Below, one piece after another: positions 2,922-18,189 of a stretch of DNA of 32,226 nt (within the stretch, counting starts at the first letter, position 1; every line of letters begins with the position of its first letter). The translations under genes and the position numbers were made by a program. Source of the stretch: a virus; IMG/VR virus record IMGVR_UViG_3300042544_000136, positions 1-32,226 of that record; one strand, given 5' to 3'. The notes below the pieces were generated by a model, which did not search any database, was not told the origin of the DNA, and saw only the letters and a list, made by a program, of their open reading frames with translations.

Positions 2922-4709
2922 TTACTCTTCTGGCGGTCTTTCTTTCAGCAATCGCTTGCCAAGTTCGTAGGTTCCTAGACCCAGCCCACCAAGGACGCCA
3001 GCGCCCCTTGTACGGGTCATTGTCTTGCCCGCAGGGGGTAACAGAGCCGCACCTGCCGCGCCAGCCTCCAAAGCCTTTAAAACGCCCTCGCTGGTATCGC
3101 CAGCCTTGAATCGAGCCAAGGCTTCTTGGTAACTCATCACGCCAAGGTAGCCAGCGCCACCACCAACAACAGTTCGCGGCAACGCGCCCATCTTTGCAGT
3201 CTTCACGCCAGCGGCATCCAAAGGACGCACCAGCGCATTTGGCTGTTCTTGCGCACGAGCCAGCCTGCGACGAGCCACCTCGGCATCGGTCTCAGCTTTG
3301 GTCAGCGCACGCTGTAGAGGAGCCGCCGTGCGTTTCTGGCCCGTGACCACGTTGTGCTGTTGACCAGCCGCCGCACGCTCTCGACGCAGACGTTCCAACT
3401 CAGCCTCATAGGTGGCTTGTTGTTGCTGGAAAGCCCGCGCTTGGGCTTCTTGCTGAAGTCGAGCCTGTTCGGTTTTCTGAGCCAACTCGGCTTGACTTGC
3501 TTGGTTCTGTCGGTCTATATCAGCTTGACGCTCCGCCACAGTGGTGGGTGGCAATTGAAGTTGCACACCGCCCTCGGTTGTCACCAAACCATAGTCACCA
3601 GCACCAAGTTTCTTGATTTTTTCCAGATTTTTCAAGTCTTCTTCAATTAGGCGCTTACCGCCTGTTGGGCTGTCTTTGGTCTGGTCGGTAACGATGTCCA
3701 AAATGGCCTCTGGCATTTGATGCTTTTGGCCTGCGGACTTGATTGTCCAGTTCCTTACACCTGAGTCACCTTCGACTGGCGCACCACTTGCTGGGCCAGT
3801 GCGAATCACTTGCGGGAACGGCGACGATGGTGCAGGCGGCTCAACCACTGGCGGAGTTCTGGGTAGACCCCTCAAGCGCTCTTGAGCCAGACGCTGTTCG
3901 TTCTTGAGGCGCTCAAGTTCGCCCTGACTTTGTCGGAATGTTTCCTCAAGATTATCTGCGCCTTGAGGCACAGCGACCTCCAAGTTACGTCGAGCCAACT
4001 CCAGTTTGTCCGCAGTCTCCAGCGCACGCTCTTGAGCCTTACTGGTGTCAATCTTTGGAGGCAACTCTGGGTTCGTCATTGGCGGGAACAACAGGTTTGT
4101 CGCCGCACCAGCAATAGCGCCAACTTCAGGCGCATTGATTCCACCCTGCTTGTCATCAGGGTTTACAACCGCAGGAGGTTTATTCTTTTCAGCCTCTTCT
4201 TGCTCACGCTTAAATTTGCTTGACTCTGACTCGTAGCCTTCAAACGGGCTTTCACTTTTCTTCTCGCCATCATCAGCGCCACCGAAAAAGTTGGTCGTGA
4301 GTTTGTGAGCGCCACGAATGGCCTTCTCGTAACCCTCGTCCTCAGCGTAGGAGCCTTTAACGCCAGTGCGCAAGCCTTCGGCGTACTTGCTGATGTCGTC
4401 GCCAGTGTTGAGCGCCTTTGGGTAGAGGCGGCGCATCATGTTTGCATAGTAATCTCCAAAAGCCTCTGGGCTTTCAAAGTTCACATAGTTGTCTTTGGTC
4501 TTGCTCTTGTTGTCCACCGCTGAAGTGCCTGCGCCAGACATATCTTTGATGTTGCCAAGGTTGAAGTGACCCGGTACTTTACGACCGTAGTCAGTCTCCA
4601 TGCCCCACTGAGCCAACAACACCGTAGGAGACACACCAATCTGCTTGCCTACCTGCACAGCAATCGGACTGTACTCCTCGGTGAACATCTTTACATGGTC
4701 ATTTGCCAT
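2922..4709 (-). CDS. Virion-associated protein with N-terminal glucosaminidase/lysozyme-like domain
   Basis: Probably an ejected or internal virion protein that opens peptidoglycan during DNA entry. Residues about 1-140 form a FlgJ/glucosaminidase-type domain: Q35-W-G-M-E38-T-D-Y-G-R with the likely catalytic glutamate, then H-F-N-L-G-N-I-K, and a conserved Y-A-x-x-M region. After it come a charged linker, an Ala/Gln/Arg/Glu-rich coiled-coil (about 220-285), a Pro-rich stretch, a second small region (about 320-380), a long coiled-coil (about 385-490), and a Gly/Ala-rich hydrophobic C-terminus (about 510-585) that could insert in membranes. It is 595 residues long, far longer than a free lysin, and is the last gene before the terminator. 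The M15 endopeptidase in the lysis cassette is the more likely lysis enzyme. Confidence 0.75.
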   Translation of the reverse strand: MANDHVKMFTEEYSPIAVQVGKQIGVSPTVLLAQWGMETDYGRKVPGHFNLGNIKDMSGAGTSAVDNKSKTKDNYVNFESPEAFGDYYANMMRRLYPKALNTGDDISKYAEGLRTGVKGSYAEDEGYEKAIRGAHKLTTNFFGGADDGEKKSESPFEGYESESSKFKREQEEAEKNKPPAVVNPDDKQGGINAPEVGAIAGAATNLLFPPMTNPELPPKIDTSKAQERALETADKLELARRNLEVAVPQGADNLEETFRQSQGELERLKNEQRLAQERLRGLPRTPPVVEPPAPSSPFPQVIRTGPASGAPVEGDSGVRNWTIKSAGQKHQMPEAILDIVTDQTKDSPTGGKRLIEEDLKNLEKIKKLGAGDYGLVTTEGGVQLQLPPTTVAERQADIDRQNQASQAELAQKTEQARLQQEAQARAFQQQQATYEAELERLRRERAAAGQQHNVVTGQKRTAAPLQRALTKAETDAEVARRRLARAQEQPNALVRPLDAAGVKTAKMGALPRTVVGGGAGYLGVMSYQEALARFKAGDTSEGVLKALEAGAAGAALLPPAGKTMTRTRGAGVLGGLGLGTYELGKRLLKERPPEE

Positions 4710-6558: not shown

Positions 6559-7584
6559 TTACCCCACTAAGTAGCCATCGGCATCGTAAAAATTTCCGTT
6601 GCCATCGTGATATTCTGCGCCAGTTGGGGCCATCCCGCCATCAGCAAGACGTACACCGCCCCCTTTGGCTTTGCGCATGACTCCGCCCTTGGCGACCTTT
6701 GCCGCACGCAAGCGAGACTCTTCTGCCATCGCGTCGTAGTACGCCTTCTGCGCGTCGGTCGAACTGGAACTTGGAAACAGCGAAGCCACCAAGGAACCCA
6801 AGCCAGCAATCTGCGACAGCGGGCTGTTGGAGTAGCCTTCGGAGCCAGTTGACTGCGTAGTCGTACCCATAGGCATTTGATAGCCCTGCATCAGCTTGGC
6901 AAACTGCTGAGTCTGCGCCATTGGGTAATCGAGCAACTTCTGGCCTTGAGCCTGCTGTTGAGCGCCGTAGTCGGACATGGTCTTCAAACCAGCCAGACCC
7001 ATGCCTTGTTGGGCTTGGCCCAAGTTCTCAAAAGCCTGACCAGCATTCAAAGCGCGAGACAAGTCTGTCTGAGCCTGCGTGCCAGCGGTCGTGTAGCCTT
7101 GCTGGAGGGCTTGCATTTGCTTGCCCATCAAGTCAGCTTGGATGTCACGCAAAGCGTTGCCAGTGACCTGCTGTTGACGACGTGAGCCAAACTGCCCAGA
7201 GCCAACAGCCGCCGCGCCGAGGTTCGGCATGATGTTTTCTTGGACGTTGCGGTTGGTCAAGCGACCCATCTCATCCACCACCGCACTGGTGTATGGGTTC
7301 ATGTAGTCAGCAATGACGTCAGGAACGGTTGTAGCGCCCGCCTCGCCCAGCAATTGAGAAGCCGCACCCATAGACCCAGCGCCAGCAAACGCGACGTCTG
7401 GAGCCATCTGGAAGGCTTGCTGTTGCAAAGGACTGAAGCCAGCGATACCACCTTGCTGGACAGCGTTCTGGCCTAAGTTGGCAATGTCTTGCAGGTAATT
7501 CGTGTAAAACTCTGGAGCCGTCTGCTGGGCTTCCGTCGTCTTGGTAATCGCGGGTAGTGGGTCACCCTGAAATAAGCCAGCCAT
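6559..7584 (-). CDS. Putative internal virion protein, Ala/Gln-rich, with KGG-type C-terminus (341 aa)
   Basis: 341-residue protein, Ala/Gln/Gly-rich and mostly helical, starting MAGLFQGDPLPAITKTTEAQ. A central stretch contains NIMPNLGAAAVGSGQFGSRR followed by QQQ and a long helix with repeated Ala/Gln, a pattern I have seen in hypothetical structural proteins of aquatic phages. The C-terminus changes character: K-x-K-G-G repeats (VAKGGVMRKAKGGGVRLADG) and a small aromatic/Asp tail (DGNGNFYDADGYLVG). It overlaps the start of the next upstream gene by one base. No enzyme motifs are seen. An ejection or capsid-internal role is likely from position. The KGG segment is shared with other late proteins here. 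Confidence 0.55.
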   Translation of the reverse strand: MAGLFQGDPLPAITKTTEAQQTAPEFYTNYLQDIANLGQNAVQQGGIAGFSPLQQQAFQMAPDVAFAGAGSMGAASQLLGEAGATTVPDVIADYMNPYTSAVVDEMGRLTNRNVQENIMPNLGAAAVGSGQFGSRRQQQVTGNALRDIQADLMGKQMQALQQGYTTAGTQAQTDLSRALNAGQAFENLGQAQQGMGLAGLKTMSDYGAQQQAQGQKLLDYPMAQTQQFAKLMQGYQMPMGTTTQSTGSEGYSNSPLSQIAGLGSLVASLFPSSSSTDAQKAYYDAMAEESRLRAAKVAKGGVMRKAKGGGVRLADGGMAPTGAEYHDGNGNFYDADGYLVG

Positions 7585-10406
7585 TATTTCGCTCCTTTGA
7601 GGTATGAGGTCAGCGCCTTGGTCTTGGGCGGAATTTTATTGATTGGAGCCGAGCGCTTGTGGGCGCGGATGCCCTCGCGGAACTTGTCCAAAGCCTGAGC
7701 GCCCGCCTTCGTTGAGCCGTTGCCAATCTGGGCCACGGTCTCGGCGTCAATCACATACTCACCGTCTGCCAGCATAGCTGGGATGTCATCCGACTGTCCA
7801 TCGCCAGCGCCATGCACGGCGGAGCCTTTGCGGAAGTCCATGCGGCCCTGAGTCAGTGGCACGTTGGAAACGTGAGGCAAGCCGCCCTTGCGCATTGGGG
7901 GAGCCATGCCCTGCTGTTGAGGCATCATGCCTTGCTGTGGCATCCCTTGTGGCATTTGTTGCGCCATTTGAGGAGGCTGTTGCTGTGGCAGACCCTGCTG
8001 TTGTGCTTGCTGAGGGGGTTGCTGTTGACCAATCTGAGGCATCATCTCAGGAGGGTTCATTGGGGGTTGCTGACGCATTCCCAAGTTCGCCAAGATGTCC
8101 GCAGGCTGACCGAAGGTGTAGTACGAGGCCACAGGGGTAGCCATCGAAGACAGGCCACCAGAGGCCATTTTGGGAGCCTCTTCTTCAGCGGCAACTTCTT
8201 CGTAGCCGTAGTCGCCTTCGTTCACGGGGTTGTACCCCGGGGCATTCAGGTTCTTCAGCAACTCTGCGTTTGGCGTGTAGTCGCCATCGCTTGTGCCGTA
8301 GTCTTCGTAGCCCACAAAGCGAGTTGGGCCAATTCCAAAATCTGTGGTGCGTGGGTTGATGAGGCCAACCTGCGACATATCCAAACCTTGGTTTTGCGCA
8401 CCAGTACCACCGCTAAAGTCTTGACCAAGCAACGTGGCAACCAAAGCGCCAGCGCCAGCCGCACCTGCGGTTGTGCCAAGCGCACCAGTAATGCCAGACA
8501 GGGCGTCACTACCTAAGCGGGTCAATGTGTTAGCACCACCAGTCAAAACGTTGCCCAAGTTTTCATACCAAGGGCGCTCACCGCCACCAGAGGATGTGAT
8601 GTCTTCTGGAACTTCAGCCGCACGATAAAACTCACCGTTCCTGAAAATATTGCCCAGCGAATCGGTGTCGTAGTACGGCTCTTCCTCATCCGTTGAGTAA
8701 ACGGCATCAGGACTGACGTTGCTGATGTCTCCAGTGTCTGGGTCGGTGGAGTACAGGTACTCGTCCGTCATCATGTCATAGGTGAAGTTGCCAATGGTGT
8801 ATGTGCCATCGCCGTTATCGACGTATCCGCCGTCTTCAAATTTAGCGACTCCGCCTTTTTTCATCATAGTAATCAAGCCTCCACGTTTGCCGTATTCTTC
8901 ATCTTCGTATGGTATGTAATACGACGAGTCGTCATTGTTTACATCGTAGTCGCTGTCCCAATAAATATCTTCTGGGTAATCGGTATAGTCCGATGAGTCG
9001 TTGTAGACGCTGTAGTCTGTGGAGTCATCACTGAGAACGCTGTCATCAAGCGACGCCCAATAGCTGTCGTAATTGAAATCAGTGTCCCACGTCCCGTCTT
9101 CACCCATAGTCCAAACTGCACCAGTTGCATCATCAACCCAAGTGTTGTCAGCAACGGGGGTGTCTTCGTAGATGTCCTCGTCTACTTCTGCGGCACGGTA
9201 AAGGTCATACCCACCGTCAGCAGTTGAGATGTAAACATTACCCAATGAGTCTTCAAAATATTCAGGCTCAAAACCAGTTGAACTGTCGTCTGTACCCACT
9301 GTGTTTGGGGGGAAGGCGTCAATATCTTCATCGACCTCTGCGGCACGATACAACTCATACGTCCCATCAGGCATTGTCTTGTAGACATTGCCCAAAGAGT
9401 CGGTCATGTACTCGTCTTCAGAAACTTCTGCGGCGCGATACAAAACCTCAGTACCGTCTGGCATGACCTGATAAATATTGCCTTTGTCATCCGTTATAAA
9501 TTCATCATCAACTGGCTTTTCAGCTTTTTGAACTAGAACCTCAGAACCATCAGGCATGACTTTGTAAAGATTGCCATCTTTGTCAGTTATTAACTCATCT
9601 TCAACTGGAGGCGCTGGAGGGCCAATATAGTTGGGGTCTCTGGGGTCAGTGACAGGCGGCTTCACCACGCTTGTTGGGGGAGCCTTTGGTTTTACCGCTT
9701 CAGCTTTTGCTTTTGCGGCGGCATCCGCCTTTGCCTTTGCGGCGGCAGTTGCAGTAGCGGCGGCGGCTTTGTCTTTTGACGTGGCGCTGGCTAACGCTTT
9801 CTTTTCAGCGGCAATTTGCGCTGGTGTTTTTGAGACGTTTGGCTTGCCAGTAATTTTGTCAATCAACAGTTTTGTGCCAGCACCAATCGCCGCGCCCGTG
9901 AGTGCGTTCACCACCTTACTGGTGGTCGAGTTTGGATTGCTGACATTTGGCTTGACCGTAGGTTTTACCGCGCCTGTACCAGTTGTGGTCTTGGTGGTCG
10001 GTGTAGTCGTGGTCTTGTTTGTAATCGTCGGTTTTGTCGTCGGCGTGGTTTTAGACGTCAGCGTTGTCTTGGGGACAAGCGTCGTCTTAGGTGTAGATGA
10101 TGTCTTCGTGGTCAAAGATGTCTTTGGAGTCAAAGTAGTCTTTGGCGTCGAAGACGTGCTTGTTGTCAGCGTAGGCTTGGTTGCAGGGTTGACAAACGTC
10201 GAGGTGAACGGGCGGTTACCAACGCCAGATTTGATGTTGGTATTGGAGCCACCAGAGCCACCAGCAGAAGTCAAAGAAGACGCGCCCCTGTCAGAGATGA
10301 AGGGGGTATTGTCTACACCGCGAATGACGCTACCCAGCGGTGCGCGGTCAACTCCCCTTGCGTCAGGAAGTTGTCTGCTTGATGTGCGTTTTTTTAGAAT
10401 AGCCAT
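7584..10406 (-). CDS. Large low-complexity virion protein with tandem 30-aa repeats (940 aa)
   Basis: Modular 940-residue late protein. Order: basic N-terminus (1-50); Thr/Lys/Pro-rich stretch with K-T-T-L-x-P-K-T repeats (about 76-150); Ala/Lys helix (about 195-245); at least four repeats of about 30 residues with consensus D-E-[FY]-[IM]-T-D-x-x-G-N-[LIV]-Y-x-x-M-P-D-G and L-Y-R-A-A-E-V (about 269-412), plus a stray copy near 578-600; an Asp/Tyr-rich acidic region (about 412-505); a K-x-G-G segment (507-527); a hydrophobic Gly/Ala part (620-660); a Gln/Pro/Met-rich run (778-838); and a conserved-looking end with GDGQSDDIPAMLADGEYVID. The last motif recurs in many phage virion proteins. Function unknown; location among ejection-type proteins suggests an internal or tail-tip structural role. 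Confidence 0.6.
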   Translation of the reverse strand: MAILKKRTSSRQLPDARGVDRAPLGSVIRGVDNTPFISDRGASSLTSAGGSGGSNTNIKSGVGNRPFTSTFVNPATKPTLTTSTSSTPKTTLTPKTSLTTKTSSTPKTTLVPKTTLTSKTTPTTKPTITNKTTTTPTTKTTTGTGAVKPTVKPNVSNPNSTTSKVVNALTGAAIGAGTKLLIDKITGKPNVSKTPAQIAAEKKALASATSKDKAAAATATAAAKAKADAAAKAKAEAVKPKAPPTSVVKPPVTDPRDPNYIGPPAPPVEDELITDKDGNLYKVMPDGSEVLVQKAEKPVDDEFITDDKGNIYQVMPDGTEVLYRAAEVSEDEYMTDSLGNVYKTMPDGTYELYRAAEVDEDIDAFPPNTVGTDDSSTGFEPEYFEDSLGNVYISTADGGYDLYRAAEVDEDIYEDTPVADNTWVDDATGAVWTMGEDGTWDTDFNYDSYWASLDDSVLSDDSTDYSVYNDSSDYTDYPEDIYWDSDYDVNNDDSSYYIPYEDEEYGKRGGLITMMKKGGVAKFEDGGYVDNGDGTYTIGNFTYDMMTDEYLYSTDPDTGDISNVSPDAVYSTDEEEPYYDTDSLGNIFRNGEFYRAAEVPEDITSSGGGERPWYENLGNVLTGGANTLTRLGSDALSGITGALGTTAGAAGAGALVATLLGQDFSGGTGAQNQGLDMSQVGLINPRTTDFGIGPTRFVGYEDYGTSDGDYTPNAELLKNLNAPGYNPVNEGDYGYEEVAAEEEAPKMASGGLSSMATPVASYYTFGQPADILANLGMRQQPPMNPPEMMPQIGQQQPPQQAQQQGLPQQQPPQMAQQMPQGMPQQGMMPQQQGMAPPMRKGGLPHVSNVPLTQGRMDFRKGSAVHGAGDGQSDDIPAMLADGEYVIDAETVAQIGNGSTKAGAQALDKFREGIRAHKRSAPINKIPPKTKALTSYLKGAK
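9171..9602 (-). repeat. Tandem 30-residue protein repeats within the 940-aa protein
   Basis: Four imperfect copies, including units beginning DELITDKDGNLYKVMPDGS, DEFITDDKGNIYQVMPDGT and DEYMTDSLGNVYKTMPDGT. Most copies end in L-Y-R-A-A-E-V; the first ends in L-V-Q-K-A-E-K instead. The last full copy is separated from the others by a linker of about 25 residues (DAFPPN...), and a weaker copy (TWVDDATGAVWTMGEDGTW) follows. A further copy lies at about 8601-8675. The copies differ at DNA level, so the array is old rather than a recent duplication. Confidence 0.8.
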
Positions 10407-10409
10407 TTT

Positions 10410-12146
10410 TTATCCACCATTCTTTACAAGCGAAGTCAGACTTGCAATGTCGGTTATAGGAGTTAAGTTTGCTCCGCTTGCCAAAGTCTTTGCAGGCGCG
10501 GCACGAGCAACTTTTTTGACCTGTTGTGTTGGCGCGGCCTTCTGAATTGGAATCAGCTTTGCCACGTCCATGCGTTGTGGTGGAGGCGCTTTGCGTGCAA
10601 CAGGCTTGGCAGTTGCCATTTGCAAACCACCAGCAGGTCTTGGCGCAGGAGCGCGACGCACTGGTTGCTTTTTCTGCGTCAAGGTTTGCTTGAGCAAGTT
10701 GCCAACAGTAGCGACCATAGGCTTGGTGAAGTCTGTGGGTTTGATGCCCATAGAGGTTGCCATTTTTGCTTCAGGCGTTGCTTGTTCTGCTTGCGCAACG
10801 GCATTCAAACCACCAGCGGGTTGGTCAGAAGCCAAGCCAGCAGTCAACAGGTCTTGAGCAACAGGAGCCTCAGACACAACAGCAGGCTTGGATGTGTCCA
10901 AGTCAATTGCTGGTACGGAAGCGTCAGCCAGAGCATTCAAGCCACCCACAGGTTCTGTTGATGCAACAGCAGGAGCCTCGGATGGAAGACCCTCAGCAAT
11001 GTCAATCACGCTTTCAGGGACGTCTTCGGTTCCGACGGGGGCTTGAGCCAACAAGGTGTTGCTAGATGCTGGAGTCTCTTCGCCAAGCAATTCAGCAAAA
11101 TCAGTTTCGCCTTCAGCTTGAGGTGCATCCGCAAAAATTTCACCGCGTCGAACTTCAATCTCAGGAAGAGATTCAGAGTCAGGAAGAATTGCAATCTCAG
11201 ACGTCGGGGTCTCGCCAGTGTATGAAGATGTTGCGTTGTTGACGCCTGCTGTTTCATCAGCGTCAGCCAACACGCTTGCAACATCAAAAGTGCCTGCGTC
11301 GTTTTCTACGCCGTAACCAGACACAGTGACTTGACCAACAACTTCATCAGGGATACCAGCGCCAGTTGTTGCTACGCTGACTGGTTCGCCTTCTTTGTCT
11401 TTCTCGTTCCAATCAGTTGCGGCGGTGCGGAACTGCTTATCAATTGATTCGTTGACTTCGCGAACGCCATAGTCAACACCTGAGCCAACCGCGCTGTTTG
11501 CGAATGCAGTTTCAAAGTCGCCTCGACCAGTCACTTCAGCAGTGATGCCAGATGAGAATGCTCTTGTGCCTGCGTTGAAGACTGCGGTTGCGTCTTGCAA
11601 GTCCAATCCGCTTTCCATAGCCAACTCAATGACGTCAGGCTTGACGTAGCTTGCAACTTCGCTGACGCCGCCTGAGACCATACCGCCAGTGAATCCACCA
11701 GCAAAGCCGTCTTCAAAATCGCCGCCTTTAATTTCTGCAATCGTTCCGTTGACCAAGCCCTTGCTGATTGAAGAACTTGCAACTTGGGAGAAAGTTTCGT
11801 TGAATCCAGCTTCAATGAAAGTAGATGACACGGTAGAAGAAATTGCGTTGCCAACGCTGGGGGCAAAATAAGCCGTACCCATCGACAAAGCAATATCTTC
11901 AAGGTCACCACCGCGTGCGGCAGTGATTGCGCCCATCGTGACGGCAGGAGGTATGCCGACAAAACTGCCAGCAACAGAGAGTAGGACAGGGAGAGGGTCG
12001 TCAATTACCGCCTGAACAACGTCACCAACTTTTTCGACAACGTCTCCGACAACCTCAACAACGTCTTCAACGACGTCACCAACAGCCTCAAATACGTCAC
12101 CGACTGCGTCACCGACATCTTCAATGAAACTGACAACTGCGCTCAT
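10410..12146 (-). CDS. Putative membrane-active internal virion protein with Val-rich heptads (578 aa)
   Basis: 578-residue late protein. The N-terminus is an unusual 7-residue periodic helix built from V-G-D-V/V-E-D-V units (about residues 8-48), followed by a hydrophobic Pro/Val/Gly-rich segment (about 50-75) and a long Gly/Ala/Ser region with small-residue periodicity (about 75-240) that resembles colicin-like or membrane-inserting phage proteins. The middle is acidic and low in complexity (about 250-470). The C-terminus is strongly basic and Pro/Ala-rich (QKKQPVRRAPAPRPAGG, RKAPPPQ). Strong charge polarity between halves would suit a protein packed with DNA and extruded into the envelope. 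No family name is recognised. It lies between the acyl-enzyme cassette and the 940-aa protein. Confidence 0.55.
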   Translation of the reverse strand: MSAVVSFIEDVGDAVGDVFEAVGDVVEDVVEVVGDVVEKVGDVVQAVIDDPLPVLLSVAGSFVGIPPAVTMGAITAARGGDLEDIALSMGTAYFAPSVGNAISSTVSSTFIEAGFNETFSQVASSSISKGLVNGTIAEIKGGDFEDGFAGGFTGGMVSGGVSEVASYVKPDVIELAMESGLDLQDATAVFNAGTRAFSSGITAEVTGRGDFETAFANSAVGSGVDYGVREVNESIDKQFRTAATDWNEKDKEGEPVSVATTGAGIPDEVVGQVTVSGYGVENDAGTFDVASVLADADETAGVNNATSSYTGETPTSEIAILPDSESLPEIEVRRGEIFADAPQAEGETDFAELLGEETPASSNTLLAQAPVGTEDVPESVIDIAEGLPSEAPAVASTEPVGGLNALADASVPAIDLDTSKPAVVSEAPVAQDLLTAGLASDQPAGGLNAVAQAEQATPEAKMATSMGIKPTDFTKPMVATVGNLLKQTLTQKKQPVRRAPAPRPAGGLQMATAKPVARKAPPPQRMDVAKLIPIQKAAPTQQVKKVARAAPAKTLASGANLTPITDIASLTSLVKNGG

Positions 12147-12148
12147 GC

Positions 12149-12592
12149 TTATTCCCTTTCAGCCCGCTTTGGCCCTAATTTGACCGTCACGCGGAAACCT
12201 GTTTTGGTTCTCTCGGCTTTGTAGCCCATGCCCTCTTGCGGGGGGTTGCGTGAGATTGCTTTGAAAATGTTCATAATCGTTGGGTCTTCAAACTCGCTTA
12301 CAAGCGTGTCAAAACCCATCTTGTATGCACCTTGGATGAAGGCGTATGAACTCTCTAGGTAGTTGCGGGCGGTGTCTGCGTTTAAGGCGCGGAACACACC
12401 AACACGCCCCTCGGCGTTGTGAATAACGAAAAGGGTGTTGCCCTCGCGCACGATAGATGTGCCGGGCATATTCATCTCTTTGACCATTGCCGCGTAGACA
12501 GTGGAGGCAGGGTGTGGCGACTTGGTTTCTTGAGCCGCAATCATCAAGATTGCTTCTTGACCCAGTTGTTTCTTTTTGCTATCGACCAGCAT
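12149..12592 (-). CDS. Small late protein, possibly GNAT-fold acyltransferase (147 aa)
   Basis: Mixed alpha/beta protein of 147 residues. The C-terminal half reads as a strand (GNTLFVIHNAEGRVGVFRAL), a long helix (about 85-105, LESSYAFIQGAYKMG), a strand (FDTLVSEF), a helix (PTIMNIFKAISRN) and two final strands, the order seen in GNAT acyltransferases and in T7 gp13-like internal virion proteins. No clear acetyl-CoA loop (R/Q-x-x-G-x-G/A) is visible, so the call is weak. The start is ATG at 12592, overlapping the ketosynthase stop (TGATG) with AAGGGG five bases upstream; a GTG at 12595 is also possible but too near the ribosome site. Coupling to ACP and ketosynthase genes makes an acyl-ACP user an attractive idea. 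Confidence 0.4.
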   Translation of the reverse strand: MLVDSKKKQLGQEAILMIAAQETKSPHPASTVYAAMVKEMNMPGTSIVREGNTLFVIHNAEGRVGVFRALNADTARNYLESSYAFIQGAYKMGFDTLVSEFEDPTIMNIFKAISRNPPQEGMGYKAERTKTGFRVTVKLGPKRAERE

Positions 12593-13701
12593 CACATCCC
12601 CTTAAAAATTGCGGCGGAATAGATGTTGCCCATCCCAGCCGCCAGACTCATTATCAGACCATCAGGTGGTGTTGTCGATTCCGAAAGGAATACCGAATCG
12701 GTTTCAGTTCGGTTCTCAATCGCTGGAACAACTCCAGACCTAATATCGTTTAACAGTAAAAGTGTCTCAAGCAATCCACTGCTACCCATCGTATGACCAA
12801 TTTTTTGCTTATACGAGGTTGCAACGAATGCTTTTAGCGTTTGGTTCAAGGCGTTCTTTTCAGCCTTGTTGTTGGACGCAGTTCCAGTGCCGTGGGTTTT
12901 GACTATTTTAATCTCATCAGGGGATATATTGCTATAGTGCATAGCACCTTCCATAGCCTTGATGAAGCCCTCACCGTCCTCGCACTGCCCAATTGCATTT
13001 GTAGAGCGCTCTGAGGCGCTGTAAGCCCCCACCAGACGGGCGTGAGGCTTGATTTGTTGCCGTGCTACAGCGTCGCGGGACTCAAATACAGCCAAGGCCG
13101 CGCCCTGACCAATCCGAAACCCAAAGTTCGTCGAGTCGAAAGCGGATGGCTTTATGCCCTCCTGCTCTTGCTTTTCTGTCAACACAGCCTTGGAGTCGCC
13201 AAAGAACTCCAGCACAGCGTTGGAGACGCCATCCTCAACGGTCAGAACGATTACACGGTCGTAATCGTAGAAGTCAATGAGGTTGACCACATCCATCATC
13301 ACCTTGAGGCTTGAAGCGCAGGCGCTGGCATCGGTGGTGACCATGTCCATGTCTCCGAACGACTGAGCAATGCGACCCGCATAGACCTGCGTCAACGTGA
13401 ATGGCAGGAACTTGTAGGTGTAGGTCAGGCGAGAGTCATAGGCTCTCTGACCGATGCCAGCAAAGTGTGCGTTGCCACCAGCAAGAATGAATGCTGTCTT
13501 GCCCACAGGATTTTCCCGCAGGAAGGTAAGCAACTCAGGGTCAAGAACCTTCTCCGCCAGCTTGTGAGGGACGTAGACCAGACCTGATTTTGTTCGGCTG
13601 TAGGTGTCTGGGAACCAGTTCACCTTTTGGGGGTAGATGATGTCGTCGAAGAGTTCGACGTCTTGGGTTGATGCAGTGCGGTAGTGCGTGAGATAAATCA
13701 T
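12592..13701 (-). CDS. Beta-ketoacyl-ACP synthase (KAS I/II, FabB/FabF-like)
   Basis: Thiolase-fold enzyme that condenses acyl and malonyl chains on ACP. 369 residues. Motifs: V-T-T-D-A-S-A-C128-A-S-S (active-site cysteine), K-T-H270-G-T-G-T (first histidine), Y-K298-Q-K-I-G-H303-T-M-G-S-S-G (lysine and second histidine). Spacings Cys-His 142 and His-His 33 are close to E. coli FabF (140 and 37). The conserved C-terminal F-G-G-T-N loop is replaced by A-A-G-M-G-N, and the protein is about 40 residues shorter than FabF. The start at 13701 (MIYLTHYRTA) overlaps the ACP stop as ATGA with GAGGTG upstream; the longer open frame to 13797 lies inside the ACP gene and is rejected. Family assignment is firm; product and substrate are unknown. 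Confidence 0.9.
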   Translation of the reverse strand: MIYLTHYRTASTQDVELFDDIIYPQKVNWFPDTYSRTKSGLVYVPHKLAEKVLDPELLTFLRENPVGKTAFILAGGNAHFAGIGQRAYDSRLTYTYKFLPFTLTQVYAGRIAQSFGDMDMVTTDASACASSLKVMMDVVNLIDFYDYDRVIVLTVEDGVSNAVLEFFGDSKAVLTEKQEQEGIKPSAFDSTNFGFRIGQGAALAVFESRDAVARQQIKPHARLVGAYSASERSTNAIGQCEDGEGFIKAMEGAMHYSNISPDEIKIVKTHGTGTASNNKAEKNALNQTLKAFVATSYKQKIGHTMGSSGLLETLLLLNDIRSGVVPAIENRTETDSVFLSESTTPPDGLIMSLAAGMGNIYSAAIFKGM

Positions 13702-13979
13702 TTGCACACCTCGACGACTTCTTCCATCGACGCTGGCTCTTTGGTCTTGTTCGCCATCACAAGGTCGTGGAGTTCCTGCACCGACTTGGGTGACCACTCT
13801 TTGCTCACCTCGTCAGCGATACCGTAGAGTTCGTCGAAGTACATCAGCATGACCAGCCCGTCAAGGCTGTCCAAACCGATTTCTTGAAAGACGTCGTCCA
13901 TCGACTCTGCGATGGTGACTTTGGCGTGTGCTGGTCGCGCCACCTTTGCCACATAGTTAAAGATTTCAATGAAGGTCAT
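13698..13979 (-). CDS. Acyl carrier protein (ACP)
   Basis: Carries acyl chains on a 4'-phosphopantetheine arm for the coupled ketosynthase. 93 residues, acidic, four-helix pattern, with the attachment motif G-L-D37-S38-L-D-G (E. coli AcpP Ser36 in the same context D-S-L-D). Helix II/III features follow: M-L-M-Y-F-D-E-L-Y-G-I matches the usual V-x-x-x-E-E-x-F-G-I. It is longer than AcpP (78) by an N-terminal helix and a C-terminal tail EPASMEEVVEVCK. The end overlaps the ketosynthase start as ATGA, so the two are made together. Its own start overlaps the 86-aa gene. No phosphopantetheinyl transferase is in the window, so host AcpS would be needed to activate it. Confidence 0.9.
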   Translation of the reverse strand: MTFIEIFNYVAKVARPAHAKVTIAESMDDVFQEIGLDSLDGLVMLMYFDELYGIADEVSKEWSPKSVQELHDLVMANKTKEPASMEEVVEVCK

Positions 13980-14237: not shown

Positions 14238-16310
14238 TTAGTTTCCGAAAGGTCTGACGTCGCCAAGCGTTACGCTCAACAACACCTTGCCCATTTGGTA
14301 ATCACCACCGCTCACGTTACTTCTAAAACGCAAACGAATCTCGCGCCGTTGCTGGCGCATATCAATCTTGCCTGTATCTGGGTCAAACGGATACTCCTGA
14401 GAGGGTACGTCTGATGACTGGGCATACGGACGACCTGTGACCTGCAAGGTCATCTCACCCTCTTGAACGAAGTCAGGCTCGACGCGCTCCAAGTTGACCC
14501 AGAAGTTTTCGCCCACGGGCGCGGTCTGGGCAGGCCCACCAGCCACAAAACCCAAGTCGCTGGTTTGGAAGTAGCTGTCAATCGCGTTGGAGGATTCAAA
14601 GATGACCTCGTCAGTGCCAATTTCGTGTTGCCAGAGGGTAACCCTGCCTGCGGTCGTATTGAACGTCACAGGGACGGTTGCCGAGGCTGTAGCAGGGTTG
14701 TCCAGCGTGACGGTGTAGTAGTTGGGCGTTGCGCTTGGCGCAATGGCAATCACGACCGAAATGTTAGTGATGCCTGCGCCAATGACTTGCTGACCCAACA
14801 GCACCAAGTTGGTGTTTGGGATTTCAATGTTGGCACTACCGTTTACCGTGGTAGCGGTGGTAGAAAAAACTTCAGTCAACTCGCTCAAGGTTGCGCCAGC
14901 GTTGATGGGGAAGCGGAACACCGTAGAGAAGAACCCAGCGGTACGGTACGCACCCAAAGCACCGCCAGCGTCATACCAACAGTCTTCACGGATGTTGTAG
15001 ATGATGCAGTCGTTGCACTCTTCACTGTCGCCCGAAGGGAAGAACCACCAAATTTCGCCAAAACGAGGAACCTTGTTGGCGTACACCTTTTGGCGCTGGT
15101 TGTAGTTCAGGTTGTCAAAAAAGTAGTTTTGATTGAACGTGTTCTTGATTTCCTTGACCACACCGTTGTAAAGCAGGAATCGGTCAACGCCAATCCAGTA
15201 GTAGATGCCGTCGTACTCAATGACGCACTGGCTGGAAAGAATGGAAGACTGGCTGGAAATGATGTCATAGCGCCAGTAAAAGGTTTGAGGAGAGCCTGCA
15301 ACTGTCACGGTGGTGGGGGTGTAGCTGACGCGAATCAGTGAGTCCAAAGACCAGAACAAACCCGAAGGAGCGTTCGAGCCGCCGCGTACTGGTAGACCTT
15401 TGACAATCTTGGTCGAAGACACGTTGGTCTCGTTGGCGTCCGCACCGTTCCAGTTAAATGGATTGCCTGCAACGCAGTTCTTGATGAGGCCATTGTCGCC
15501 ATAGACGAAGACATAGGGGTGAAGCACCACCACACCGCCAGAGACTTCAATCAGGTCGCCTGTTGGAGTAGAACCTGCGGTGTCAGCCAAGGGAGACATA
15601 TTGGTTCCGCTGATGTCACCTGCAAACACAATGGTGTTCACGATGGCGTCAGTCTGTGCAAGGTTTTGACCTGCGTGAGCCAACAACAATTGGTTGTTGC
15701 TTCCTTGCGAATCGAACATGGAGTCAAACTGCCACAGGTTCAAATCGCTTGGGATGAACGAGCCATTGACGGTCGCAATCGGCACGGAGAAGCCTGAGCC
15801 AGTTCCGCCAATGCTTGCCGCTGGTGCGCTCAATACGTCGCCCACGTTGTAGTAGTTGCCGCCGTTGGTTACAGTGACCGTGGTCACGGTGTTGCCAGCG
15901 ACCACGATGGTGGCTATTGCGCCAGAACCAGAACCGCCAGTCAACGCTACGCTTGTGTAGGTTCCGTTGGTGTAGGCAGTTCCGCCAGTTACCGTGCCTA
16001 GCGTCAAAATATTGGAGCCAAAGTTTATTTGGTTGACGCCAGAGCCAATGCCGTTGTTGTCTACGTTGAGGACTTCAAGACCGTTGTTGTAGCCGTTGAA
16101 GACTTGGTTGTTGCCGTCTACGGAGTTGACATATAAACCGCGAGAGTAGCCCTTAGCATCACTGGTGATGGCGCGGTAACCACCAATTTTGCGTGGACGC
16201 CCACGTTGAAAACGCACCCAAAGTGCGTCTGTGTAGAAGTTCATATCGAAAATCGTGCCGTCGCGTTGGACGCCCGGCAACGTGTCGATAGTAAAAACCT
16301 TCTTGACCAT
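14238..16310 (-). CDS. Tail stabilisation / hub protein, P22 gp10-like
   Basis: Likely part of the tail that closes the portal and supports fibres. 690 residues starting MVKKVFTIDTLPGVQRDGTI, with a Y-T-D-A-L-W-V-R-F-Q-R-G-R-P-R-K-I-G-G-Y opening typical of phage tail hub or packaged-DNA stabilisation proteins. A mid-region W-R-Y-D-I-I-S-S-Q-S-S, C-V-I-E-Y-D-G-I-Y-Y-W-I-G-V-D-R-F-L-L-Y and E-I-W-W-F-F-P resembles the repeated strands of the gp10 beta-propeller. A Gly/Thr/Asn-rich insert near 90-190 looks like a fibre-type beta domain. It lies between a fibre and the 86-aa gene. The gp10-like label comes from pattern and position; a propeller tail-fibre-associated protein is the alternative. 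Confidence 0.65.
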   Translation of the reverse strand: MVKKVFTIDTLPGVQRDGTIFDMNFYTDALWVRFQRGRPRKIGGYRAITSDAKGYSRGLYVNSVDGNNQVFNGYNNGLEVLNVDNNGIGSGVNQINFGSNILTLGTVTGGTAYTNGTYTSVALTGGSGSGAIATIVVAGNTVTTVTVTNGGNYYNVGDVLSAPAASIGGTGSGFSVPIATVNGSFIPSDLNLWQFDSMFDSQGSNNQLLLAHAGQNLAQTDAIVNTIVFAGDISGTNMSPLADTAGSTPTGDLIEVSGGVVVLHPYVFVYGDNGLIKNCVAGNPFNWNGADANETNVSSTKIVKGLPVRGGSNAPSGLFWSLDSLIRVSYTPTTVTVAGSPQTFYWRYDIISSQSSILSSQCVIEYDGIYYWIGVDRFLLYNGVVKEIKNTFNQNYFFDNLNYNQRQKVYANKVPRFGEIWWFFPSGDSEECNDCIIYNIREDCWYDAGGALGAYRTAGFFSTVFRFPINAGATLSELTEVFSTTATTVNGSANIEIPNTNLVLLGQQVIGAGITNISVVIAIAPSATPNYYTVTLDNPATASATVPVTFNTTAGRVTLWQHEIGTDEVIFESSNAIDSYFQTSDLGFVAGGPAQTAPVGENFWVNLERVEPDFVQEGEMTLQVTGRPYAQSSDVPSQEYPFDPDTGKIDMRQQRREIRLRFRSNVSGGDYQMGKVLLSVTLGDVRPFGN

Positions 16311-17553: not shown

Positions 17554-18189
17554 TCAGGTATCCAATACAGTTGCTTGACGGTCACCAATACGCTGTACAT
17601 CCTCAGACTTCAGGGTCTGGATGATGAGGTCGTAATTCTGTTGCCACATAGGCATACGCTCATCGTTCTTGATGTACGGCATGGCCTGCAACAAAGACCC
17701 ATACAGCAAAGCCTGTGGAGCGTAGATGGTGAACCAATTCGTTTGGTTGGAAGAATCAAGCGGCTGGAGCCGCTCGTAGTACAGAACCTCAAACTCATAC
17801 GCCAGCGCAGGAGATGGAGCGACTATCCAGTGGGTGTAGTCGTAATCGCCGTAATAAACGGGCGCACCAGTCACGGTTGGGTCTGGGGCATACTCGCGCA
17901 GGTACTCGTACTTGCGAAGCAATACAGGCTGTTTCTGACCGCCTACGGTCACGTTCATGGATACTGTCTTGTGCCAGCGGGCAGGCTTGTCGATGATGGG
18001 CTGACCAATCGTCATGGTCGAGGTCTGCACCGTCAGGTTGCCAAGGAACTTGATTTGGCTGGCAATGATTTGCTCTGCCAGCATAATGAACAAAGGAATC
18101 TTGGCGAGAGTATCGGCGTCAGTACGGTCTAAGTAAGACTGTATGTTTTCGACCAGTGAGTCGTAGGTCATTACCGATGCGGTCGTCAT
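17554..18189 (-). CDS. Head-tail adaptor protein, phage adaptor family (211 aa)
   Basis: Predicted to sit between portal and tail. 211 residues beginning MTTASVMTYDSLVENIQSYL. An N-terminal helix pair precedes L-F-I-M-L-A-E-Q-I-I-A, then a beta-rich middle (RWHKTVSMNV, VLLRKYEYLREYAPDP, P-V-Y-Y-G-D-Y-D), then W-F-T-I-Y-A-P-Q-A-L-L-Y-G-S-L-L and a final helix. This architecture matches the adaptor proteins of short-tailed phages (P22 gp4 / SU10 adaptor type). It is transcribed after the lysis genes and before the fibre at 16310. The window also has a second, larger adaptor-like protein at 26517. Confidence 0.7.
   Translation of the reverse strand: MTTASVMTYDSLVENIQSYLDRTDADTLAKIPLFIMLAEQIIASQIKFLGNLTVQTSTMTIGQPIIDKPARWHKTVSMNVTVGGQKQPVLLRKYEYLREYAPDPTVTGAPVYYGDYDYTHWIVAPSPALAYEFEVLYYERLQPLDSSNQTNWFTIYAPQALLYGSLLQAMPYIKNDERMPMWQQNYDLIIQTLKSEDVQRIGDRQATVLDT

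Follow-up and report, generated by a model that had tools for sequence, protein, structure and literature searches.

The 147-residue protein P147, encoded within the 32,226-base stretch of viral DNA analyzed here (the window), is a protein of the GNAT fold by structure prediction, and the role that we tentatively favor for it, at somewhat less than even odds, is to help assemble or load a probable ejection protein within a virion-assembly and ejection module. In this role, P147 would bind the product of the next gene and deliver it during virion morphogenesis, the process that T7 gp13 has been suggested to serve, and it would probably do so without using coenzyme A (CoA). We infer the binding, the absence of catalysis, and the ejection role of the neighboring gene from the evidence set out below. 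The genes for an acyl carrier protein (ACP) and a beta-ketoacyl-ACP synthase (KAS), which usually lie directly before the pair formed by P147 and the ejection protein, would constitute a separate cassette that probably acts in the same late step and is not required for the basic function of P147. We favor the assembly or loading role because the position of the gene, its constant downstream neighbor, its retention in records without ACP and KAS, and its missing CoA loop all agree. Since P147 usually accompanies ACP and KAS yet also exists without them, the ejection protein may be its closest partner.

The P147 reading frame is more than a chance one, as it recurs at 84–100% identity in 29 viral loci, and aligned relatives that reach down to 27% identity keep its motifs conserved. 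A GTG one codon further upstream offers an alternative start that would give 148 residues. The gene lies in a late module on the minus strand (Table 1) that runs from a head–tail adaptor through a protein with a weak tail-fiber match, a nozzle-like protein, the small protein C89, ACP, and KAS to P147; five proteins follow downstream, the last of them a glucosaminidase. The start codon of C89 is uncertain, the homolog of the nozzle-like protein in phage record MW202545.1 carries the annotation "phage stabilization protein," and the protein encoded directly after P147, IVP578, had no family match in Pfam or PHROGs searches. A 940-aa protein encoded in the window (7584–10406) contains repeat units of the form GNxYxxxPDGxxxLxRAAEV, recognized by eye, and its C-terminal stretch resembles some tape-measure proteins (phrog_6090, 7.7e-7).

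Table 1. Features of the late module in the window
Feature	Coordinates	Strand	Description and family matches
P147	12592..12149	minus	147 aa, start ATG; GNAT-fold protein, predicted structure
KAS	12592..13701	minus	beta-ketoacyl-ACP synthase; PF02801 1e-15, PF00109 2.6e-9, phrog_35856 1.3e-37
ACP-like protein	13698..13979	minus	matched weakly by PF00550 (0.17) and by phrog_5934, acyl carrier protein (0.0053)
C89	13976..14266	minus	small protein between nozzle-like protein and ACP; kept upstream of ACP in related loci
IVP578	10410..12146	minus	probable ejection (internal virion) protein, directly downstream of P147
Nozzle/stabilization-like protein	14238..16310	minus	phrog_3287 virion structural protein 7.5e-28
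Head–tail adaptor	17554..18189	minus	PF24175 SU10_adaptor 5.3e-23; phrog_2941 1.6e-32
Peptidoglycan hydrolase, module end	2922..4709	minus	PF01832 Glucosaminidase 4.5e-10

An earlier, sequence-only reading of this DNA had described a 147-aa gene abutting KAS through the sequence TGATG, and the gene is real and lies where it was described, with ACP and KAS directly upstream. The coupling itself, in which the KAS stop codon TGA and the P147 ATG overlap by one base, is present as well, although it loses its value as evidence of a functional link. Because each of the 11 gene junctions in the module, counted from the adaptor through to the glucosaminidase, is tight, at −29 to +3 bp (the −29 depends on the uncertain C89 start), the overlap is ordinary in this module, and we rejected it as a sign of a special relationship between KAS and P147.

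The AlphaFold2 model of P147, built with 40 diverse sequences, has a pLDDT of 93.6 and a pTM of 0.86. Its predicted secondary structure comprises helices at residues 12–22 and 29–40, strands at 45–50, 53–59, and 64–71, a helix at 75–91, a strand at 96–101, a helix at 104–115, and strands at 123–128 and 133–138. The strand-helix-strand-helix-strand order that had been read from the sequence of the C-terminal half is therein correct and forms part of a full GNAT topology. The best VIA-align match to the model is RimI (2cnm; Z 11.2, rmsd 3.2, 123 aligned residues), which is effectively tied with other GNATs within one Z unit; Z reaches at least 8 for 395 of the 999 aligned chains, and among the 50 entries listed, 49 are acetyl- or acyltransferases or known GNATs by title, the title of 1wwz stating no family. 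The leading rows of a Foldseek search of the PDB, 20 of them at E ≤ 0.001 (best 2.7e-4, ≈10% identity), are mostly named acetyl- or acyltransferases, with some uncharacterized proteins among them; RNase E chains appear at ranks 23 and 34, and the LuxI-type protein TofI stands at rank 39 (E 1.6e-3, TMq 0.41, rmsd 10.6). HlyC-type structures are absent from the 50 rows listed in the Foldseek and VIA-align comparisons, an absence that carries no weight against a likeness to HlyC. In the BFVD library, 19 matches fall at E ≤ 0.001, and the closest is an uncharacterized phage protein at 40% identity. The model of a relative from a locus without KAS, L109, also adopts the GNAT fold (pLDDT 91.5; best Z 9.7, rmsd 2.4, 110 aligned residues). 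Because the AlphaFold2 model, the structural matches in the PDB, and the fold of L109 agree, the guess of a GNAT fold in the sequence-only reading was right: the structure prediction that it had called for as a check yielded a fold related to GNAT, borne out by the quality of the model and by the GNATs that lead the PDB matches. On the strength of the model, then, P147 has a GNAT fold and belongs by fold to that superfamily.

The CoA pyrophosphate-binding motif of GNATs, R/Q-x-x-G-x-G/A, lies between strand 4 and helix 3. This motif was not found in P147, where residues 72–74 alone join the strand at 64–71 to the helix at 75–91; the earlier remark that no acetyl-CoA loop was evident thus holds in the model, where three residues make the connection. 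The place of the loop is occupied by an NxDT sequence, with N71 and D73 each present in 84 of 84 ungapped unique P147 sequences and, in a wider set of 30 rows, in 28 and 30, respectively. The position of the usual GNAT tyrosine appears, from a motif-based alignment, to correspond to F110 in P147 (Phe in 78 of 85). Because the motif is absent and the presumed tyrosine position holds phenylalanine, canonical use of CoA by P147 is unlikely, as judged from the model. P147 has no invariant histidine either, H58 being present in 79 of 85 sequences. The missing loop fits a noncatalytic binding protein and, less directly, an enzyme with another donor.

Sequence comparison placed P147 in no family of assigned function. 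The window protein gave only weak matches in Pfam, PHROGs, NCBIfam, and PDB sequences, and 40 diverse family members searched against Pfam likewise gave only weak ones (best 0.017). With the same 40 members and the 25 of 36 PHROGs listed, phrog_38125 matched six members (best 0.0074) and phrog_2202 a single member (5.2e-4), both annotated without function; a profile search of the PDB with the P147 family returned six weak rows (best 0.083). At E values up to 1, none of the 40 members matched PF02794 (HlyC), PF00765 (LuxI), or an acetyltransferase family of Pfam. Over three P147 queries, full-length matches among named phages came from a single record, MW202545.1 (Manatee Spring phage), which encodes ACP, KAS, and P147 at 43, 61, and 37% identity in the order and place seen in the window, and whose P147 homolog is annotated as a hypothetical protein. 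Beyond it, the only matches among named phages were weak, partial ones to Arthrobacter phage DrYang (E 0.9). A P147 query from a locus without KAS matched no named phage, and another query matched MW202545.1 alone. Caulobacter phage GB2A, a relative, has the nozzle protein, C89, and some later genes, and the 36.6 kb examined contain no match to ACP, KAS, or P147. ACP, KAS, and P147 are also found together in a phage module on a contig of a Balneolaceae metagenome-assembled genome (JAGYJQ010000016.1).

The two genes before P147 retain the residues expected of their products. The KAS active-site residues Cys128, His270, Lys298, and His303 are kept in all ungapped unique sequences (94, 95, 95, and 95 of 96, respectively), and the phosphopantetheine-site serine of ACP (Ser38, motif DSL) is kept in 83 of 83 unique sequences. 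To count how often the three genes occur together, loci were collected from IMG/VR through scans led by P147 and by KAS, with the best 80 loci taken from one P147-led scan and from each of two KAS-led scans. Where more than 1.7 kb of upstream sequence is present, ACP and KAS stand in front of P147 at 144 of 153 distinct sites, although part of these P147 sites were found through the KAS-led scans, which favors co-occurrence. Conversely, of the 145 KAS genes whose downstream sequence extends for 500 bp or more, 143 are followed by P147, and the order is ACP-KAS-P147 in all 226 loci that hold the three genes (not deduplicated). A total of 528 environmental stretches encode a relative of a divergent KAS alignment; among the best 80 of these 528, which were checked in a KAS-led scan, 76 have P147, two end right after KAS, and two are without P147. 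This last result weakens the idea that ACP and KAS are mere passing neighbors of P147. The association (144/153 and 143/145) exceeds what passing neighbors would lead one to expect, and it counts against the role of P147 as an assembly partner. Passages of PMC8224337 report Rhodobacteraceae prophages that carry fabG, acpP, and fabF, and among the papers listed in literature searches, mostly from outside subscription journals, none was seen to describe ACP and KAS inside a virion module.

P147 is nevertheless separable from this pair. Twelve records representing nine distinct sites carry P147 without KAS (a PF02801 search found 0 of 12, against 8 of 8 KAS-bearing control records), and the same 12 lack ACP (0 of 12; controls 6 of 6); although these virus records are fragmentary, each includes the sequence that precedes P147. 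An obligate system in which P147 occurs only with ACP and KAS is not what these records depict, and we rejected the idea that P147 requires the pair. In a tree of 42 P147 rows, six KAS-free records fall at four places, and well-supported branches force at least three changes, with the long rows L103/L109 and L108 placed unsurely. Long branches in KAS-free lineages might have pointed to faster evolution of P147, an idea we discarded since the rows are few and their placement is unreliable, above all for L103/L109. Across seven KAS-free and 23 KAS-bearing rows, D4, S5, L10, N52, and D73 are invariant, and T53, N71, T74, and N77 are nearly so. Most of the conserved core of P147 would thus seem, from the alignment, independent of the phage ACP and KAS. 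Two residues are kept mainly in the presence of KAS, F110 (22 of 23 vs three of seven KAS-free rows) and G51 (23 of 23 vs four of seven), and both count against the assembly-partner role.

The pair may also occur without P147. In two incomplete records, L274 (12,997 bases) and L279 (30,462 bases), ACP and KAS adjoin a helicase gene, and no P147 match was found in either (controls 4 of 4). In L279 (3699–5555), ACP, KAS, and a FabA/FabZ-type dehydratase (PF07977, 5.8e-30) are encoded consecutively beside a gene for an SNF2-type helicase, and in L274 (1907–4680), an ACP and KAS of the same family lie by the same type of helicase, with a gene after KAS that is not FabZ-like. The dehydratase is present in one of the 22 records tested. 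That both records have the pair without P147, and that one of them adds a dehydratase, suggests that ACP and KAS are able to work in a separate acyl-chain pathway. The proposal that P147 is the third member of an ACP/KAS set thus stands as far as its strong co-occurrence with the two genes is concerned, and it does not stand as a general rule, given the 12 records with P147 but neither partner gene and the two incomplete ones in which the pair had no P147 match. Wide occurrence in phages without ACP and KAS, which the sequence-only reading named as evidence that would speak against it, has its examples here but not on that scale, since only a minority of cases lack KAS.

The gene downstream of P147 is a constant neighbor. 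It begins −14 to +4 bp after P147 in all 82 unique loci that could be counted (74 with KAS and eight without), four of 86 having too little sequence to place it. In a second set of 58 loci, not fully separate from the first since some KAS-free contigs are in both, it begins within −14 to +5 bp in 51 and lies 94–238 bp away in the other seven. In most loci, though not in all, its product begins with a V/D-rich stretch that is probably amphipathic; the V+D share of the first 60 residues ranges from 0.05 to 0.52 and has a median of 0.41 in loci with KAS vs 0.21 in those without, the latter from eight rows that are not independent. The N-terminus of IVP578 itself consists of V/D-rich repeats of the DVVGDVVE type. 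When IVP578 was compared by BLAST with 32 loci that carry P147, 25 gave a match, and since the V/D-rich start is also variable, the next proteins are only partly supported as one family. By its position and composition, the gene is the probable counterpart of that for the first ejection protein, as gene 14 follows gene 13 in T7 (for ejection-protein gene order, see passages of PMC8954989). As a partner of P147, a probable ejection protein fits the earlier suggestion that the acyl group might go to a virion protein encoded next door, although the fit demonstrates no reaction.

Co-variation ties P147 to both neighbors. Among 1341 locus pairs (70 loci) whose KAS proteins are at least 75% identical, P147 falls below 55% identity in 350, and in 346 of these 350 the first 180 residues of the next protein also fall below 35%, vs 13 of the 991 other pairs; with 111 loci, the corresponding counts are 355 of 385 pairs vs 14 of 1075. 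These pairs are not independent, and one or a few exchanges may account for the pattern. The locus L182 offers an example, being 93% identical to the window in the adaptor, 84% in C89, 60% in ACP, 79% in KAS, and 46% in P147, an abrupt shift within the module of the sort that recombination would produce. At KAS identities of 0.7–0.8 (856 pairs), P147 correlates with the next protein (rho 0.65) and not with KAS (rho 0.05), whereas at 0.5–0.7 its correlation with the next protein is just 0.03 and 0.19, which counts against the assembly-partner role. So does the overall Spearman correlation of P147, 0.886 with KAS vs 0.791 with the next protein; the corresponding partial correlations are 0.803 and 0.619, and the overall values across the 111 loci are 0.834 and 0.512.

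Several other roles for P147 draw on the same evidence. It is possible, if on the doubtful side, that P147 is an acyl-ACP-dependent acyltransferase whose acyl chain is built or lengthened by ACP and KAS. The ejection protein would receive the acyl group at its N-terminus or on a lysine, which would help it enter the host membrane, with phages that lack KAS using host acyl-ACP. The unvarying gene order and the conserved active-site residues of KAS and ACP speak for such an enzyme, as does the retention of F110 and G51 mainly alongside KAS. Absence of the CoA loop is a possible trait of an ACP user, as in HlyC-type enzymes, and P147 shows that absence. Of the 82 unique loci, 81 have a next protein that begins with Met followed by Ser, Gly, or Ala, although in the second set fewer proteins have one of these three at residue 2 (48 of 58). 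ACP is acidic (median net charge −11) and P147 mostly basic (median +4 of 135, range −7 to +15), yet the charge of P147 in records without KAS spans −14 to +13, and K6 and R68, the only basic residues whose conservation among the 23 KAS-bearing rows reaches 80%, are retained without KAS too (seven of seven and six of seven, respectively). The five residues invariant with and without KAS, the lack of an invariant histidine, and the phenylalanine at the presumed tyrosine position also weigh against acyl transfer. We consider it unlikely that the genes form a virion-lipidation set, in which ACP and KAS prepare the acyl chain and a GNAT without a CoA loop moves it to the N-terminal Ser or Gly of the ejection protein; were this so, acylation before packaging would allow the ejected protein to insert into the host membrane.

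More improbable is a docking or regulatory subunit of ACP and KAS, which would hold ACP, set chain length, or position the pair at the assembling virion. The near-universal presence of P147 after KAS, its overall co-variation with KAS, and the one-base overlap of the two genes would suit such a subunit, but the overlap is one of 11 tight junctions, the five invariant residues persist in KAS-free rows, and the pair occurs with no P147 match in the incomplete records of L274 and L279, the latter with its dehydratase. We give little credence to an active GNAT or small-molecule acyltransferase directed at a host target, whether in the manner of Rac, which acts on host proteins, or as a LuxI-like maker of signals, for which the GNAT fold and the presence of TofI among the Foldseek matches can be cited. 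Such an enzyme is at odds with the absence of the R/QxxGxG loop, with the lack of PF00765 and acetyltransferase Pfam matches among the 40 members, and with a gene position inside the late module, which differs from that of Rac as described in passages of PMC7552054. The assembly or loading role remains the one we prefer on present evidence.

The RimI-type N-alpha-acetyltransferases, which give P147 its best structural match, share only 6% identity with it and possess the CoA loop that P147 lacks. HlyC-type toxin acyltransferases and LuxI synthases have a GNAT fold and use ACP, and HlyC-type enzymes have a conserved catalytic histidine. P147 resembles both groups in having a gene for ACP nearby, but it has no invariant histidine, and its 40 members searched match neither the HlyC nor the LuxI family of Pfam at E values up to 1. 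The Rac gene of phiKMV-like phages, whose product has a predicted acetyl-CoA pocket, is placed by passages of PMC7552054 at the leading edge of the structural gene block, unlike P147 inside its module. Closer in placement are the cobaviruses, in which a GNAT (SIO1 pc40) has internal virion proteins on one side and tail tubular proteins on the other, according to passages of PMC6775973. By that description, pc40 has the same place in a podovirus-type module and the same fold class as P147, and the passages mention no ACP or KAS, unlike the P147 loci.

The closest parallel in layout is T7 gp13 (PF11090, "probable scaffold protein Gp13"), which at 138 aa is near P147 in size. T7 gene 13 lies between the nozzle gene 12 and the internal core gene 14, and P147 is placed alike, except that C89, ACP, and KAS intervene between the nozzle-like gene and P147 in the window and that the next gene has a putative core role; T7 gene 13 has no neighboring ACP or KAS. 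The likeness does not extend to sequence. Whereas T7 gp13 matches PF11090 at 1.1e-47, none of the 40 P147 members does so at E values up to 1, and an hhalign comparison of the P147 family with six gp13 sequences gave a probability of 0.2%, with no homology found; P147 was thus rejected as a member of PF11090, and at most it would work in the manner of gp13. In T7 gp13 itself, an R-L-S-G-K-A sequence after a conserved W-F-V-T fits the CoA motif by eye, which P147 is without and which five aligned gp13 relatives do not keep. Passages of PMC6775973 cite a suggested part for T7 gp13 in virion morphogenesis. Should GNAT-fold proteins prove to be paired with ejection proteins in general, this would offer a handle on the function of T7 gp13-like proteins, which in those passages is so far only suggested.
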